A stretch of 35,740 nt of DNA from a virus: IMG/VR virus record IMGVR_UViG_3300025896_000085, positions 1 through 35,740 of that record; one strand, written 5' to 3'. Made by a program: the position numbers and the translations under genes. The notes under the pieces were generated by a model. It was not told where the DNA came from. It saw only the letters and a list, made by a program, of their open reading frames with translations, and did not search any database. This document shows, piece after piece, positions 29-35,740 of the stretch. Each line of letters starts with the position of its first letter. Positions within the stretch are counted from its first letter, which is position 1.

Positions 29-931
29 ATGGCTAACGACAGAAACGATTTTGCACCTGAAATACGCAATAGTGCTTGGTGGGCATCTGACACCCGTAGA
101 GCTATTCAAGGTCATGCAGTAGAGACTATTCTTATTAAACAAGGCAAGTTGCCTCCTCCTGATTTGTCAGGTATCGAGGCAGTTCAAATGGGTCACATTA
201 TGCAACCTACCATTGGTAGACTAGCACAAGACCGTTTAAAGAAGGAACTAAAAGATGCAGACTACGCACTTACTCATAACTCTGAGCCTTGGTTTCGCAG
301 TCATTTTGATTTTATTAGCTCTGACGGAAGAACCTTGGTTGAAGTTAAAAACTATAATGCGAATGCTCGATCTAAGTTTGATCCTGATAGTAATCGCATT
401 CCTACTGTCGATTACAGCCAGTTAGTCCATGAAAGCGCAGTCCATCGTATTAACCATGTAGTCCTAGCGGTTCTGTTCGGTGGTCAAGAGTTTCATACCT
501 TTGAGTTTAATGTGACTGAGCAAGAGCATAGCGAGTTAATACAGTCCATGGCGGTGTTTTGGGGTCATGTTCAATCAAATACGCAACCAGAGGCTAAGTC
601 CATAGAAGATACTAAACTCTTATTTCCTACCAGTATGGAAGGTGTTGTGATAGCTACTGCTGAGATGGAGAGAGTGATTGGCGATCTTAAATCTATTAAA
701 GGCAAGATTAAAGAGTTAGAGGAAATCCAAGAGCAATGGGAGTTAGTATTGCGTAATTCTTTAGCAGACAAAGCAGAGATACGATCTTTTGATGGTAATA
801 CCCTAGTTACATGGAAGTCATCTAAGGCAAGTATGCGGTTCTCTACAGATTTGTTTAAGAGTGCGATGCCTGACATCTATGAGAAGTTTATCGTGGAAAG
901 TAGTGGTAGTAGACGTTTTTTAATTAAATAA
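29..931 (+). CDS. YqaJ-type recombination exonuclease
   Basis: A 300-aa protein of the YqaJ/lambda-exonuclease PD-(D/E)XK superfamily. It is expected to degrade one strand of double-stranded DNA ends so that the RecT protein encoded next can anneal the exposed strand. The nuclease core is visible: GHIMQPTIGRLAQ (55-67) in the first helix, then an acidic D94 in HFDF and E105-V-K107 after a glycine turn. A charged helix lies at about 220-245. The C-terminal stretch with TWK, FKSAMPDIYEKF and SRRFLIK is typical of phage members. The start ATG has GGAGG at 17-21, 7 nt upstream. The gene heads the recombination operon and is followed 25 nt later by recT. The family call is strong; processivity and polarity are inferred from relatives. 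Confidence 0.9.
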   Translation: MANDRNDFAPEIRNSAWWASDTRRAIQGHAVETILIKQGKLPPPDLSGIEAVQMGHIMQPTIGRLAQDRLKKELKDADYALTHNSEPWFRSHFDFISSDGRTLVEVKNYNANARSKFDPDSNRIPTVDYSQLVHESAVHRINHVVLAVLFGGQEFHTFEFNVTEQEHSELIQSMAVFWGHVQSNTQPEAKSIEDTKLLFPTSMEGVVIATAEMERVIGDLKSIKGKIKELEEIQEQWELVLRNSLADKAEIRSFDGNTLVTWKSSKASMRFSTDLFKSAMPDIYEKFIVESSGSRRFLIK

Positions 932-956
932 CCTAACTAAATTAAAGGAAATCAAT

Positions 957-32330: not shown

Positions 32331-32382
32331 CATTACCAGTAAGCACCAAAGGAAAATAAACCCTTTTCTATAGAGTGTGAAG

Positions 32383-32485
32383 ATGCGACTATCTATCCTC
32401 ACATCTAACAGTAGATCGAATAGACTATAGACATATTATCTATACCACTATTATTTAAATTTATAGTTATCGTCTATAGTCGCAT
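32383..32485. repeat. nested inverted repeats with CTATAG cores
   Basis: ATGCGACTAT (32383-32392) and ATAGTCGCAT (32476-32485) are exact reverse complements 83 bp apart. Inside lies a second exact pair, GACTATAGAC (32423-32432) and GTCTATAGTC (32472-32481), the latter overlapping the outer arm. The pairs could form a cruciform or, more likely, mark several sites for one dimeric protein that bends or loops the DNA. Confidence 0.7.
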
Positions 32486-32542
32486 ATAAGTATATATATC
32501 TATGATCTATTTTAAGATAGTGTAAACCTATCGTTTAAAAAT

Positions 32543-32579
32543 TACAATTAAAAAATACAATTAAAAATAAATTAAAAAT
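32543..32579. repeat. AT-rich 13-mer repeats
   Basis: TACAATTAAAAAA (32543-32555), TACAATTAAAAAT (32556-32568) and a partial third unit (AAATTAAAAAT from 32569) lie head to tail in a block of nearly pure A and T. Such 13-mers are the usual unwinding element of bacterial-type origins, and can also serve as UP elements for the promoter that follows. Confidence 0.6.
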
Positions 32580-32668: not shown

Positions 32669-33514
32669 ATGGAAAACAAGATATATCAAGAAGTAACGGA
32701 TAGAATCATAGCTAACCTAGAAAAGGGAGTTATGCCTTGGATTAAACCTTGGCATACTGAAAACACACTAGACAAAAACATCGTATCTCAAAATGAATAT
32801 AACGGGATTAATCGTTTAATTCTAGGTATGTCAGGATTTAATTCTAATGTTTGGGGTAGCTTTAAACAATGGGATAGTTTAGGTGCTAACGTTAAAAAAG
32901 GCGAAAAGGGAACGGCTATCGTATTCTACAAACCGTTATCCTCTACTAAAGTAAACGATCAAGGGGAAAGTGAAAACTCATTTTATGCTTGCTTAAAAAC
33001 ATACTATGTATTCAATGCCGAGCAAGTAGAGGGTATAGAGATCAAACCACGTGTAACAGTAGATAAACCATTTATGAACAATGTATCAATAGATGAGTTA
33101 GTAGCCAATACTGGTGCTACTCTTAAACATGGCGGAAATAGTGCTTACTATAGACCTAGTGAAGATTACATTAATATGCCAATCAAATCCGATTTTATGG
33201 AAGAATCAGGATATTACGCAACGTTATTACATGAGCTTACTCACTGGTCAGGTGCTAAACATAGATTAGATAGAACTAAGGGTAAACGTTTTGCGGATAC
33301 CGCATACGCCTTTGAAGAATTAATTGCAGAGATCGGTAGTGCATTTTTATGCGAAAAATACAGCGTAAAAGGTGATATACGTCATGAAGGTTATATTGCA
33401 TCATGGCTAAAAGCGTTAAAAGATGATAACAAAATGATCTTTAAAGCAAGCGCATACGCTCAAAAATCTACTGATTATATTGTAGGATTTAAAGCACTTG
33501 AAATGGTAGCTTAG
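32669..33514 (+). CDS. ardC: ArdC-like antirestriction metalloprotease
   Basis: A 281-aa protein with the two-domain ArdC plan. Residues 1-130 form the single-strand DNA-binding domain: YQEVTDRIIANLEKGVMPWI, NEYNGINRLIL, then WGSFKQWDSLGANVKKGEKG and TAIVFYKP. Residues about 140-281 are a zincin-like peptidase: H188-E-L-T-H192 (HExxH) followed by FEELIAEIGSAF, in which E217 or E221 should be the third zinc ligand, and a C-terminal helix with SWLKALKDDNKMIF. Plasmid ArdC blocks restriction enzymes and shields entering DNA. As first gene after the rightward promoter it is well placed to act as DNA enters. The active site is complete. Confidence 0.88.
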   Translation: MENKIYQEVTDRIIANLEKGVMPWIKPWHTENTLDKNIVSQNEYNGINRLILGMSGFNSNVWGSFKQWDSLGANVKKGEKGTAIVFYKPLSSTKVNDQGESENSFYACLKTYYVFNAEQVEGIEIKPRVTVDKPFMNNVSIDELVANTGATLKHGGNSAYYRPSEDYINMPIKSDFMEESGYYATLLHELTHWSGAKHRLDRTKGKRFADTAYAFEELIAEIGSAFLCEKYSVKGDIRHEGYIASWLKALKDDNKMIFKASAYAQKSTDYIVGFKALEMVA

Positions 33515-33597
33515 TAATACCTTATAAGCTCTTAGTAATAGGAGCTTATAGGATTGTTATTAGACAATCATTACCTAACTTTAAAAGGATAAAAATT
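33511..33597 (+). promoter_or_regulatory. two-hairpin RNA module, copy 1
   Basis: The gap between ardC and the next gene folds as follows. P2 is CTTATAAGCTC (33521-33531) with GAGCTTATAGG (33542-33552). P3 is GATTGT (33552-33557) with ACAATC (33564-33569). ACCTAACT (33573-33580) and the ribosome site AAAGGA follow. An outer P1 is possible: TTAGTAAT (33511-33518) with ATTACcTAA (33570-33578, one bulged C), making a three-way junction. TTAGTAAT occurs again in the P2 loop and could compete for the same strand. No T tract follows, so it is not a terminator. Two more copies with compensatory changes lie at 33803 and 34740. Confidence 0.75.
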
Positions 33598-33789
33598 ATG
33601 TTAATAAGTAAAGAATATTTAGATGATATAGCCGATAAACTCAATATGATGGCTAATAATCATGGAATAAATCCGTCTTACGAATTAGCTTTAAAAAATG
33701 CTACTTACATTATTAGATGTATACGTAGAGAATTAGAAGAAGATAATTTTCAAGTTACTAGCTTTAAATTAGAGGGCAAAAAAGTATGA
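33598..33789 (+). CDS. small helical protein (63 aa)
   Basis: A 63-aa protein made of helices (EYLDDIADKLNMMANNHGIN, YELALKNATYIIRCIRRELE) and a short tail KLEGKKV. It is preceded by RNA module 1 and a weak ribosome site (AAAGGA), 12 nt from the ATG. No known motif. It belongs to the early-type cassette after ardC, so a host-takeover or anti-defence role is possible but unproven. Confidence 0.55.
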   Translation: MLISKEYLDDIADKLNMMANNHGINPSYELALKNATYIIRCIRRELEEDNFQVTSFKLEGKKV

Positions 33790-33802
33790 AAACCCTAATT
33801 AA

Positions 33803-33888
33803 TTAGTCTAATCTTATAAACCCTTATATATAGGGGTTTATAGGGCTTATTCTAAGCCGATACCTAACTAACTATAGGAGTATTTAAC
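33803..33888 (+). promoter_or_regulatory. two-hairpin RNA module, copy 2
   Basis: Same plan as copy 1. P2 is CTTATAAACCC (33813-33823) with GGGTTTATAGG (33834-33844), extendable by three pairs towards a TATA loop. P3 is GGCTTA (33844-33849) with TAAGCC (33853-33858). Then ACCTAACT (33862-33869) and AGGAG (33876-33880). Compared with copy 1, both sides of several P2 and P3 pairs differ but pairing is kept. A partial outer stem is possible through TTAG (33803-33806) with CTAA. Located between two tiny genes. Confidence 0.75.
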
Positions 33889-34068
33889 ATGAGTGTTTAT
33901 TTAGAACGTGGTTATAAAGATCGTAAAGAATATTTGATTAGCTTATCCGAAAATATGGGTATATCTAAATCTATCGTTTTCACTATTGCAAGTATCTTAG
34001 GCGCAAGCGAAGATTTTGACGGTTTAATAAGCGAGTTAGAAGATAACATGATCAATGGGGAGTATTAA
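33889..34068 (+). CDS. small protein (59 aa)
   Basis: A 59-aa protein beginning MSVYLERGYKDRKEYLISLS, then SENMGISKSIVFTIASILGA with an acidic end SELEDNMINGEY. The GISKSIVFTIASILG part reads like a helix-turn-helix or a short amphipathic helix, not a membrane span. AGGAG lies 8 nt upstream of the ATG, following module 2. The stop is 2 nt before the next ATG. Unknown function. Confidence 0.6.
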   Translation: MSVYLERGYKDRKEYLISLSENMGISKSIVFTIASILGASEDFDGLISELEDNMINGEY

Positions 34069-34070
34069 TT

Positions 34071-34271
34071 ATGCAAAATGAAAACCTAACGAATGATGAA
34101 ATAACGTGGATAGTAACCAGTATCAATAATGAAATTGGAAGAATGTATAAACAATCATTGTCGTTTGATAAGTTAGATTCTTGGAAGTATAAGCGTGAGA
34201 ATGAGGGATATATAAAGATTCTCTTGAGTGCTAAAACTAAACTAATCCTTAAACAATTCAAAGGGGTATAG
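34071..34271 (+). CDS. small helical protein (66 aa)
   Basis: A 66-aa protein with helices NDEITWIVTSINNEIGRMYK and YIKILLSAKTKLILKQF joined by a charged turn (WKYKRENEG). GGGGAG upstream of the ATG is a good ribosome site inside the end of the previous gene. No motif recognised. Part of a run of short genes with tight spacing. Confidence 0.6.
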   Translation: MQNENLTNDEITWIVTSINNEIGRMYKQSLSFDKLDSWKYKRENEGYIKILLSAKTKLILKQFKGV

Positions 34272-34274
34272 ATC

Positions 34275-34442
34275 ATGCAATATTGGATAACATACCACGA
34301 TAGCAAATACGATCATACCCGTAGAGAATATGGAATAACTAATAATCCAATGGATATATTTAGAAAATATTACGAGATTCTACAGAATCATAAGGTTCTA
34401 AGTGTAGACATTGATAACCTAGAAAATAAGGGGATAGCATGA
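34275..34442 (+). CDS. small protein (55 aa)
   Basis: A 55-aa protein beginning MQYWITYHDSKYDHTRREYG, with a helix IFRKYYEILQNHKVLSVDID and a short end. AAGGGG precedes the ATG by 9 nt. The stop shares ATGA with the next start. The YHDSKYDHTRR segment is rich in H and D but does not match a metal-site family I know. Function unknown. Confidence 0.6.
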   Translation: MQYWITYHDSKYDHTRREYGITNNPMDIFRKYYEILQNHKVLSVDIDNLENKGIA

Positions 34443-34642
34443 ACCAAGACCTAGCAATTGCTTTTAACAGGGCAAGATATTTTAATAAAAAAATGATTAT
34501 TGAATATCGAGAACACAACAATAGTATTTATCAAAGTCAGATTAATTATCGTGAGGCTGATTCAATGGAAGATTTTAAGGAACGAATGGCAAAATCAGGC
34601 ACTTTAATTTGTTACGCAAAAATATATACGGAGGAAGTATGA
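34439..34642 (+). CDS. small protein (67 aa)
   Basis: A 67-aa protein with DLAIAFNRARYFNKKMIIEY, a beta-like centre NSIYQSQINYREAD and SMEDFKERMAKSGTLICYAK. The order helix-strand-strand-helix-strand suggests a compact folded domain. It is joined by ATGA overlaps to both neighbours, which argues for coupled translation in fixed proportion. Unrecognised. Confidence 0.6.
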   Translation: MNQDLAIAFNRARYFNKKMIIEYREHNNSIYQSQINYREADSMEDFKERMAKSGTLICYAKIYTEEV

Positions 34643-34728
34643 TTGATTACATTCTTGGGACAATCTTTAGTATTGCCATAGGATTGATTCTAGCAAGCAT
34701 TTGGATATATTCTAAGGGTTGGTATTAA
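34639..34728 (+). CDS. 29-aa membrane mini-protein
   Basis: A 29-codon gene in an ATGA overlap with the previous gene and with GGAGG ideally placed at 34630-34634. The product is almost one membrane helix: MIDYILGTIFSIAIGLILAS then IWIYSKGWY. A negative residue lies at the front and a lysine at the back. Such phage peptides often perturb or sense the host membrane. The strong ribosome site and overlap support translation. Confidence 0.55.
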   Translation: MIDYILGTIFSIAIGLILASIWIYSKGWY

Positions 34729-34739
34729 CACAATAGAAT

Positions 34740-34811
34740 TATCTTATAGAGCCTCTTTTAAGGGGTTCTATAGGACTAATTTTAGTCAAAACCTAACTAG
34801 GAGTATACAAA
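34740..34811 (+). promoter_or_regulatory. two-hairpin RNA module, copy 3
   Basis: P2 is CTTATAGAGCC (34743-34753) with GGTTCTATAGG (34764-34774), the pair G-T being a wobble. P3 is GACTA (34774-34778) with TAGTC (34783-34787). Then ACCTAACT (34791-34798) touches AGGAG (34799-34803). The outer strand is not evident here. All three modules keep the words CTTATA, TATAGG and ACCTAACT but change paired bases together, which is the expected mark of selection on RNA structure. Confidence 0.75.
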
Positions 34812-35054
34812 ATGAGTTTATTACAAGAGATGGAAACCCATGGGCTTGCTGATTGTGAGTTTAACCGTAAATTAATTAATTGCACATTAGTGGTAAGAGC
34901 ATACAACCAGTTTGGTGAATGGATGGATGATCTAGGATATTTTAAGTCTAAAGAATTAGCAGAGTTATGCTTATTAAAAGCAAAAGAAGGCGATTCAGGA
35001 GATGAGGATTCATGGAATTATCACATTGAAGAATATACAACGGAGGCGATTTAA
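34812..35054 (+). CDS. small protein (80 aa)
   Basis: An 80-aa acidic protein. It starts with MSLLQEMETHGLADCEF, has a beta-like centre (LINCTLVVRAYNQFGEWMDD) and a helix KSKELAELCLLKAKEGDSGD, ending YHIEEYTTEAI. AGGAG lies 8 nt upstream, after module 3. It is followed after 2 nt by a gene with a related plan (acidic, beta-helix-beta), so both may have come from one ancestor. Function unknown. Confidence 0.6.
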   Translation: MSLLQEMETHGLADCEFNRKLINCTLVVRAYNQFGEWMDDLGYFKSKELAELCLLKAKEGDSGDEDSWNYHIEEYTTEAI

Positions 35055-35397: not shown

Positions 35398-35420
35398 AAG
35401 CTTAATTTATATATTTGACA

Positions 35421-35447
35421 AGGGGGTTTACAACCCTCTTTTTTTTT
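35421..35447 (+). terminator. intrinsic terminator of micro-gene cassette
   Basis: AGGGGGTT (35421-35428) pairs with AACCCTCT (35432-35439) over eight pairs including one G-U, with a 3-nt loop, followed by a run of nine T (35439-35447). This is a strong intrinsic terminator 24 nt after the last small gene. Its right half is at the same time the -35 and spacer of the next promoter. Confidence 0.85.
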
Positions 35448-35455
35448 GCTAGTAT
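35427..35455 (+). promoter_or_regulatory. promoter with extended -10, inside terminator
   Basis: TTTACA (35427-35432), a 17-bp spacer and TAGTAT (35450-35455) preceded by TGC, giving an extended -10. Start expected near 35462. A second TTGACA at 35415-35420 has no -10 at proper distance. The promoter would drive the small RNA that follows and, on read-through, the recombination operon if the ends join. Confidence 0.7.
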
Positions 35456-35461
35456 CTTTTT

Positions 35462-35582
35462 ATTGCGAATTAGACAGCGCACATTTAAAGCCTCTTGATA
35501 GGTGTTTTGTTAGTTTAGGTAAGTAAGTCGTGAATTTACCTAAGCTACTGTCTAAACAAAACATCTTTTAAGAGGTTTTTTT
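35462..35582 (+). ncRNA. predicted pseudoknotted small RNA or attenuator
   Basis: About 121 nt between a strong promoter and a T run. Helix A: 35487-35496 with 35570-35579 (10 pairs, one G-U). Helix B: GGTGTTTTGTT (35501-35511) with AACAAAACATC (35555-35565), 11 pairs, one G-U. Helix C: TTAGGTAA (35515-35522) with TTACCTAA (35536-35543). In addition the 5' end TTAGACAG (35470-35477) pairs perfectly with CTGTCTAA (35548-35555) in the bulge between B and C, forming a pseudoknot. Seven T follow helix A (35576-35582), so it ends as an intrinsic terminator. It fits no RNA class I know. It could be a trans-acting small RNA or a terminating leader for the next operon. Confidence 0.65.
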
Positions 35583-35740
35583 ATTGCCCTTTCCTCGTAA
35601 TCGTTCTCCATACGATAATAAGCAGCTCTGTTCGTGCTGGCGTGGAAGGAAAGCGAATCACCTACGATAAAGGTTACACGGGTGCGTGAGGTTGCCAAGC
35701 CAAGCGATAAACAGGTAAGTATGCTGATATAGGTTTCTGT
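35583..35740 (+). promoter_or_regulatory. structured leader toward the left edge
   Basis: No convincing gene. Visible pairings: CTTTCCT (35589-35595) with AGGAAAG (35647-35653), enclosing ATCGT (35600-35604) with ACGAT (35612-35616) and a short CAGC/GCTG stem. The word CACCTAC with a following AAAGG (about 35659-35672) weakly recalls the ACCTAACT box. ATAAACAG (35707-35714) pairs with CTGT at the end plus TTAT at positions 1-4 if the molecule is circular. Frames here are short: a TTG-started 28-codon frame from 35584 and a GTG-started 14-codon frame near 35682, neither persuasive. Confidence 0.4.

Follow-up and report, generated by a model that had tools for sequence, protein, structure and literature searches.

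A covarying RNA element with candidate competing helices at junctions between small phage genes

Introduction

Hairpins and short repeats placed between or before phage genes are known from several systems, and these are the closest counterparts of an RNA element of ~75 nucleotides (nt) that occupies three gaps in one operon of IMG/VR virus record IMGVR_UViG_3300025896_000085 (positions 1 to 35,740; this whole stretch of 35,740 nt is referred to as the window). The operon lies at the right end of the window and consists of an ardC-like antirestriction gene followed by a run of small open reading frames (ORFs). Among the known systems, the RNase III sites of T7 early mRNA are hairpins that recur between the early genes, ahead of ribosome sites. 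PeSL are mobile cassettes of T4-type phages, reportedly described by Arbiol in 2010 and Comeau in 2014. PeSL are intergenic stem-loop modules at which small genes are shuffled, with an early promoter joined to a terminator stem-loop (PMC4503421). In Cluster K mycobacteriophages, the short SAS and ESAS repeats precede the starts of some small nonstructural genes; SAS is a 13-bp motif (GGGATAGGAGCCC) located 3 to 7 bp before the start codon and kept across genes of different families, about half of the SAS have an inverted repeat just upstream, and the ESAS repeats (17 bp with a spacer) keep their sequence (PMC3203893). The putL and putR antiterminator RNAs of HK022 are ~70 nt long and form two adjacent stem-loops in the phage mRNA; they are promoter proximal, occur once per early operon, bind RNA polymerase, and suppress termination (PMC9378689). 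In translational coupling by RNA unfolding (PMC12548453) and in attenuators, alternative pairings are sensitive to a ribosome on the upstream frame.

The element described here folds as U-P2-P3: strand U (8 nt), which in most copies includes or adjoins the upstream stop codon, lies 5′ of a long hairpin, P2, which is followed by a second hairpin, P3, and U can also pair with the final 3 nt of the 5′ arm of P3 plus the P3 loop to give a third helix, P1. Like SAS/ESAS, the element precedes gene starts (74 of 74 copies), and its downstream motif ACCTAACT also marks other starts; unlike SAS/ESAS, it has a competing helix and a strand containing a stop codon, neither of which is described for those repeats, and the single match to the SAS motif in the window is at chance level (3 mismatches) and away from the element. 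It resembles PeSL in lying at junctions of gene shuffling, but it differs from them in that no terminator T tract follows P2 (over 62 copies, the longest run of T within 12 nt of the end of P2 has a median of 2 and a maximum of 4), and no plus-strand promoter-like match was found inside any of the three window copies (E1, E2, and E3) in a scan limited to sigma-70 promoters. The size of ~70 nt and the two adjacent stem-loops recall put, in contrast to which the element has up to three copies per record, between genes and at upstream stop codons, with alternative helices. As with the T7 RNase III sites, hairpins are repeated between genes before ribosome sites, cleavage of the element being only a candidate activity; to our knowledge, the T7 sites have no P1/P3-type competition or stop-codon strand. 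As in coupling and attenuation, the pairings of the element would respond to a ribosome on the upstream reading frame, but no terminator hairpin with a U tract follows, as it would in an attenuator, and, unlike in a coupling switch, the predicted exposure of the Shine-Dalgarno (SD) sequence is the same in both states (0.51 versus 0.50).

SAS/ESAS, PeSL, and put thus each fail at least one of their defining features tested at the element. An earlier reading of the window (the original prediction), whose author was aware of no described element of this form, agrees with Rfam: the element matches no Rfam family, and its third helix, P1, was previously unrecognized. Nothing in the window reached the gathering level of Rfam 15, with only subthreshold chance matches in the window region; no match with an E value of up to 1 was found in 51 kb of relatives, and no ArdC-associated intergenic phage hairpin was found in the openly licensed literature.

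Results

A loose sequence pattern applied to IMG/VR returned almost only chance matches, and a second pattern returned mostly unrelated repeats and few true copies; relatives were therefore gathered by searches with neighboring proteins and with a pattern combining P3 and ACCTAACT. Together with the copies found by covariance models, this gave 74 places with 62 distinct sequences, from IMG/VR contigs representing dozens of uncultivated relatives and from the GenBank phage MW202825.1, with 1 to 3 copies per record (records searched whole). The contigs share the architecture of the window, mostly with the element directly after ardC. Covariance models were built from 36 copies (R1) and 49 copies (R2). 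Beyond its training set, R1 found copies in contigs L137, L198, and L214, in MW202825.1 (L151), and three in L229; R2 added a second copy in L198 and had 0 matches in 844 kb of unrelated viral contigs.

Conservation of pairing was assessed over 49 aligned copies. P2 comprises 12 pairs, 99.5% of cells being paired, with two-sided changes at 9 of the 12; the paired fractions are 86.6% for P3 and 83.6% for P1. Homologous gaps in related phages therefore keep the stems, as the original prediction anticipated. The covariation score was 0.66 for P1 plus P2 and 0.70 for P2 plus P3, against ~0.20 for shuffles (0.21 for P2 plus P3) and ≤0.12 for slid partners. A tree-aware null written for this analysis, in which U was anchored by its own motif and the P3 3′ arm by pairing, left nine significant column pairs (six in P2, two in P3, and one in P1) and none outside the helices; because of this anchoring, the significance of P3 leans on that choice, whereas P1 was not so anchored. 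An earlier tree-aware run on the raw MAFFT alignment gave eight significant pairs, all in P2 and P3. The U of each copy forms 7.30 of 8 pairs with its own P3 strand, compared with 6.33 ± 0.09 when U is swapped in from other copies. Of the 49 copies, 45 keep one and 48 the other of two U·G wobbles in P2, an indication that it is the sense strand that folds, and a GNRA tetraloop closes P2 in 22 of 62 copies. These results give good support for a structured RNA family whose fold is conserved. The view that the structure is selected while the sequence changes holds under the tree-aware null, and the placement upstream of genes recurs in other phages.

The three window copies span 33512 to 33580 (E1), 33804 to 33869 (E2), and 34734 to 34798 (E3), with folding z-scores of −4.1, −2.2, and −4.8, respectively. 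Each has the order P2, abutting P3, ACCTAACT, SD, and ATG, so that the shared arrangement of hairpins and ribosome site originally proposed is present in the sequence. The P2 pairs and the P3 stems named at that time are exact; P2 is longer than was claimed (11 bp, extended by up to 3 apical pairs and in many cases closed by a 4-nt loop), and strand U and helix P1 had been overlooked. The features are as follows.

33509 to 33584, plus strand: E1, whole model match, between the ardC-like gene and the 63-amino-acid (aa) ORF; 88.6 bits with R1 and 85.9 bits with R2, both over all 76 positions, E1 itself having belonged to the training set
33512 to 33519, plus strand: E1 strand U (TAGTAATA), the 5′ strand of P1; starts with the ardC stop codon and forms 8 of 8 pairs with 33555 to 33562
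33521 to 33552, plus strand: E1 P2, 11 bp plus 3 apical pairs, GUAA loop
33552 to 33569, plus strand: E1 P3 (GATTGT/ACAATC)
33555 to 33562, plus strand: E1 P1 3′ strand (TGTTATTA), overlapping the P3 5′ arm and loop
33573 to 33580, plus strand: start-associated motif ACCTAACT before the 63-aa ORF
33801 to 33873, plus strand: E2, whole model match, between the 63-aa and 59-aa ORFs; 69.2 bits with R1 and 62.3 bits with R2
33804 to 33811, plus strand: E2 strand U (TAGTCTAA); forms 6 of 8 pairs with P3 loop strand 33847 to 33854
33813 to 33844, plus strand: E2 P2
33844 to 33858, plus strand: E2 P3 (GGCTTA/TAAGCC)
33862 to 33869, plus strand: ACCTAACT before the 59-aa ORF
34731 to 34802, plus strand: E3, whole model match, upstream of the 80-aa ORF; 62.9 bits with R1 and 62.8 bits with R2
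34734 to 34741, plus strand: E3 strand U (TAGAATTA); forms 8 of 8 pairs with 34777 to 34784
34743 to 34774, plus strand: E3 P2
34774 to 34787, plus strand: E3 P3 (GACTA/TAGTC)
34791 to 34798, plus strand: ACCTAACT before the 80-aa ORF

Outside the gathered contigs, similarity to the DNA of named phages is low, with two Manatee Spring phages reaching ~70% over part of the region. Named phages with relatives of ArdC or of the 59-aa gene (L325 to L332) have no copy of the element; bacterial and archaeal genomes gave no exact pattern match, and an ArdC search of genome contigs gave one distant relative. An E3-type copy in L230 (1405 to 1476) has TACTGG in place of TATAGG, which breaks the base of P2, and is possibly decaying.

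All 74 copies lie between an upstream stop codon and a downstream start codon. In 68 of the 74, the first base of the upstream stop falls between −1 and +6 relative to the start of the core; in 39 it falls at +3, and there the stop is generally the TAG that belongs to U. The next ATG usually follows 81 to 94 nt after the start of the core. The most frequent arrangement has P2 beginning 6 to 7 nt past the stop codon, which, judged from other structures lying downstream of ribosomes, would place it near the mRNA entry of a ribosome terminating there. This spacing also brought stop-codon readthrough into consideration, which was rejected, as more in-frame stops follow close behind (e.g., TAG TAA in E1). 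A loose terminator scan flagged all three P2 hairpins of the window on account of their AT-rich tails, but the short T runs after P2 mean that intrinsic termination is not a property of the family; the original prediction had considered terminators unlikely for want of a T tract.

P1 and P3 overlap by ~3 nt. Mean pairing probabilities were 0.93 for P2, 0.47 for P1, and 0.41 for P3, with mostly one of P1 and P3 dominating in each copy, and in 55 of 58 copies P1 plus P2 was the more stable fold when compared with P2 plus P3 with U blocked. The two helices are thus predicted to compete as mutually exclusive alternatives near balance. A different partner for U, the CCTAACT motif (TTAG/CTAA, giving a three-way junction), was dropped, since CCTAACT is unchanged where U is ACAGTG, AAGTATTG, or ACAATG, and U follows the P3 loop instead. 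The same region suggested an integron attC site (ACCTAAC fits RYYYAAC), which was rejected because it lies on the 3′ side and has no GTTRRRY partner on the 5′ side.

The place of ACCTAACT in the module, after P3 and before the SD, was correctly described at the outset, but the motif is not specific to the element. Away from the element, 57 of 84 occurrences mark a gene start that has an SD, almost always 12 to 20 nt before the ATG, compared with 4 of ~160 for reversed, complemented, and shuffled control 8-mers. It or its variant ACCTAAACT also occurs where the fold is absent (e.g., window positions 931 to 938 and 2467 to 2474), and the remote copies in L198, L229, L151, and L214 keep the helices and lack ACCTAACT. 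In these phages it is a motif in its own right, associated with gene starts; the papers listed as containing the string in the openly licensed literature are unrelated.

The genes flanking the element fall into 25 upstream and 37 downstream families. L264 and L274 have a common upstream gene and element followed by different downstream genes, L258 and L312 have the same element before different downstream genes, and L318 and L270 have a common element and downstream gene behind different upstream genes; some downstream genes recur behind different elements. L324 (426 to 502, minus strand) carries a hybrid, with U and P2 of the L242 type and the 3′ half of P3 and the downstream gene of the L250 type, as would be expected from a crossover within P3. 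In L230, ardC is followed directly by an E2-type copy and the 59-aa gene, so that the 63-aa ORF and one copy appear in the window as an extra unit. The element is often a junction at which neighboring genes are exchanged.

Discussion

The best single account of these observations, put forward tentatively and with the acceptance that it may well prove wrong, is that the element is a cis-acting sense-strand RNA which punctuates the polycistronic mRNA of small genes by means of a P1/P3 switch. By default, P1 and P2 would form an extended hairpin of ~20 bp starting at the stop codon. A ribosome terminating at that codon would cover U, leave P2 folded, and let P3 form, and the fold would thereby report whether the upstream gene is translated. 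In this way it would govern how the junction is processed, how stable it is, or how readily ribosomes reach it, and hence expression of the downstream small gene. This output step is the least certain part of the proposal. Sequestration of the SD by the switch is not supported, accessibility being equal in the two states; the output could instead be mRNA processing, mRNA stability, or ribosome standby. A weak, short CCU/AGG pairing does occur near the SD. Control of translation, mRNA cleavage or stability, and protein binding, the functions listed in the original prediction, are all still candidates.

Several observations weigh against the P1/P3 switch. (i) P1 contributes a single significant pair under the tree-aware null (another has an E value of about 0.14 to 0.22) and none on the raw MAFFT alignment, the latter being attributed to a misplaced U in the few copies that bear insertions. 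(ii) E2 has the weakest P1 of the three window copies, with only 6 of 8 pairs, and its U does not adjoin a stop codon, the element sitting 14 nt from its upstream stop. (iii) Where the loop is large, 5 of the 8 P1 pairs might form alongside P3 as a loop pseudoknot, so that the exclusion may not be strict. (iv) The copy in MW202825.1 (32637 to 32709) keeps P2 and 8 of 8 P1 pairs and has essentially lost P3, which suggests that P1 can outlast P3. (v) The predicted SD exposure is equal in the two states, by folding that takes no account of tertiary contacts.

A bolder version, which we regard as doubtful, is that the element represents a new class of phage RNA switch with the terminating ribosome as its ligand, carried as a portable module. 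With the stop codon inside the switching strand, the translation status of each small gene would be read by the RNA leading into the next, and portability would place newly acquired genes under the same control.

The main rival to translation-dependent switching is a constitutive processing or stability site of the T7 type, which is possible but somewhat unlikely. Host RNase III (or RNase E) would cut the P1-plus-P2 hairpin, separating neighboring cistrons and leaving the P3 hairpin at the new 5′ end, with no control by translation. A hairpin of ~20 bp with a small internal loop, present several times per operon, between genes and before ribosome sites, is what such a site would look like, and 5′ hairpins protect mRNA, a role that P3 could fill. 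Left unexplained are the precise position of the stop codon inside or next to U and, unless P3 comes into play only once the RNA has been cut, the covariation of P3 as a helix competing with P1.

Binding of the element by a protein of the phage or the host, a translational repressor or activator recognizing the P2 stem, wobbles, and loop and controlling the downstream genes jointly, is unlikely. The invariant A-U pair, the two conserved wobbles, the recurrent GNRA loop, and the presence of 1 to 3 copies per record would suit it; P2 loops differ greatly in both size and sequence, the remote copies share little sequence, and P1 versus P3 would have no role. It is quite improbable that the element is a recombination junction alone, its repeats kept by homologous exchange of small genes and its fold having no RNA role: the exchanges in L264/L274 and L258/L312, the recurrence of a downstream gene with different elements, the L324 hybrid, and a RecT-like protein encoded in the window (below the Pfam cutoff) are in keeping with it, but homologous exchange requires like sequence, yet here the sequence varies while the pairing stays, and the strand-specific wobbles and fixed stop and start spacing point to RNA. 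A transcription signal (terminator, attenuator, or put-like antiterminator) is highly improbable, for despite the resemblance of two adjacent hairpins of ~70 nt with alternative pairings to put or an attenuator, and the flagging of the three P2 stems as terminator-like, no U tract lies behind P2 or P3 across the copies, no Rfam family matches, and the copies are mid-operon at stop codons, whereas put lies near the promoter (PMC9378689).

The element adds to the known repertoire a structured RNA family with strong covariation, outside Rfam, at junctions of uncharacterized small phage genes, and the covariance models provide a means of locating such junctions. An RNA with a stop codon in its proposed switching strand is also a concrete case open to testing. 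Should the switch operate as proposed, phages would have in it a general means of placing swapped-in genes under operon control.

Neighboring genes and other noncoding regions

The genes flanking the three copies are as follows.

32669 to 33514, plus strand: ardC-like antirestriction gene (Pfam ArdcN and MPTase-PolyVal), upstream of E1; stop codon TAG at 33512 to 33514
33598 to 33789, plus strand: 63-aa ORF, downstream of E1; ATG at 33598
33889 to 34068, plus strand: 59-aa ORF, downstream of E2; ATG at 33889
34812 to 35054, plus strand: 80-aa ORF, downstream of E3; ATG at 34812

The ardC-like gene (upstream family U0) is the commonest upstream neighbor of the element in the relatives. A search for relatives of the 63-aa protein found none, and PHROGs gave no match for ten proteins flanking the elements. 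A C-terminal Ala is frequent in the flanking small proteins, a count by eye giving about 10 of the 25 representatives of upstream families and 16 of the 37 of downstream families.

Farther downstream, window positions 35420 to 35590 contain a terminator-like hairpin with a T tract and then a promoter-like match (TTTACA-17-TAGTAT), after which come ~100 nt of noncoding DNA with a long stem ending in a T tract. A similar stretch occurs in L124, L196, L127, and L150, with two-sided changes at 8 pairs among five sequences, and this noncoding stretch is possibly a small phage RNA. A second noncoding stretch, at window positions 35590 to 35740, looks conserved by eye in MW202753.1 (L150, about 32380 to 32560, minus strand), the shared letters being GGAAGGAAAGC ... 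GGTTGCCAAGCCAAGCGATAAACAGGTAAG.

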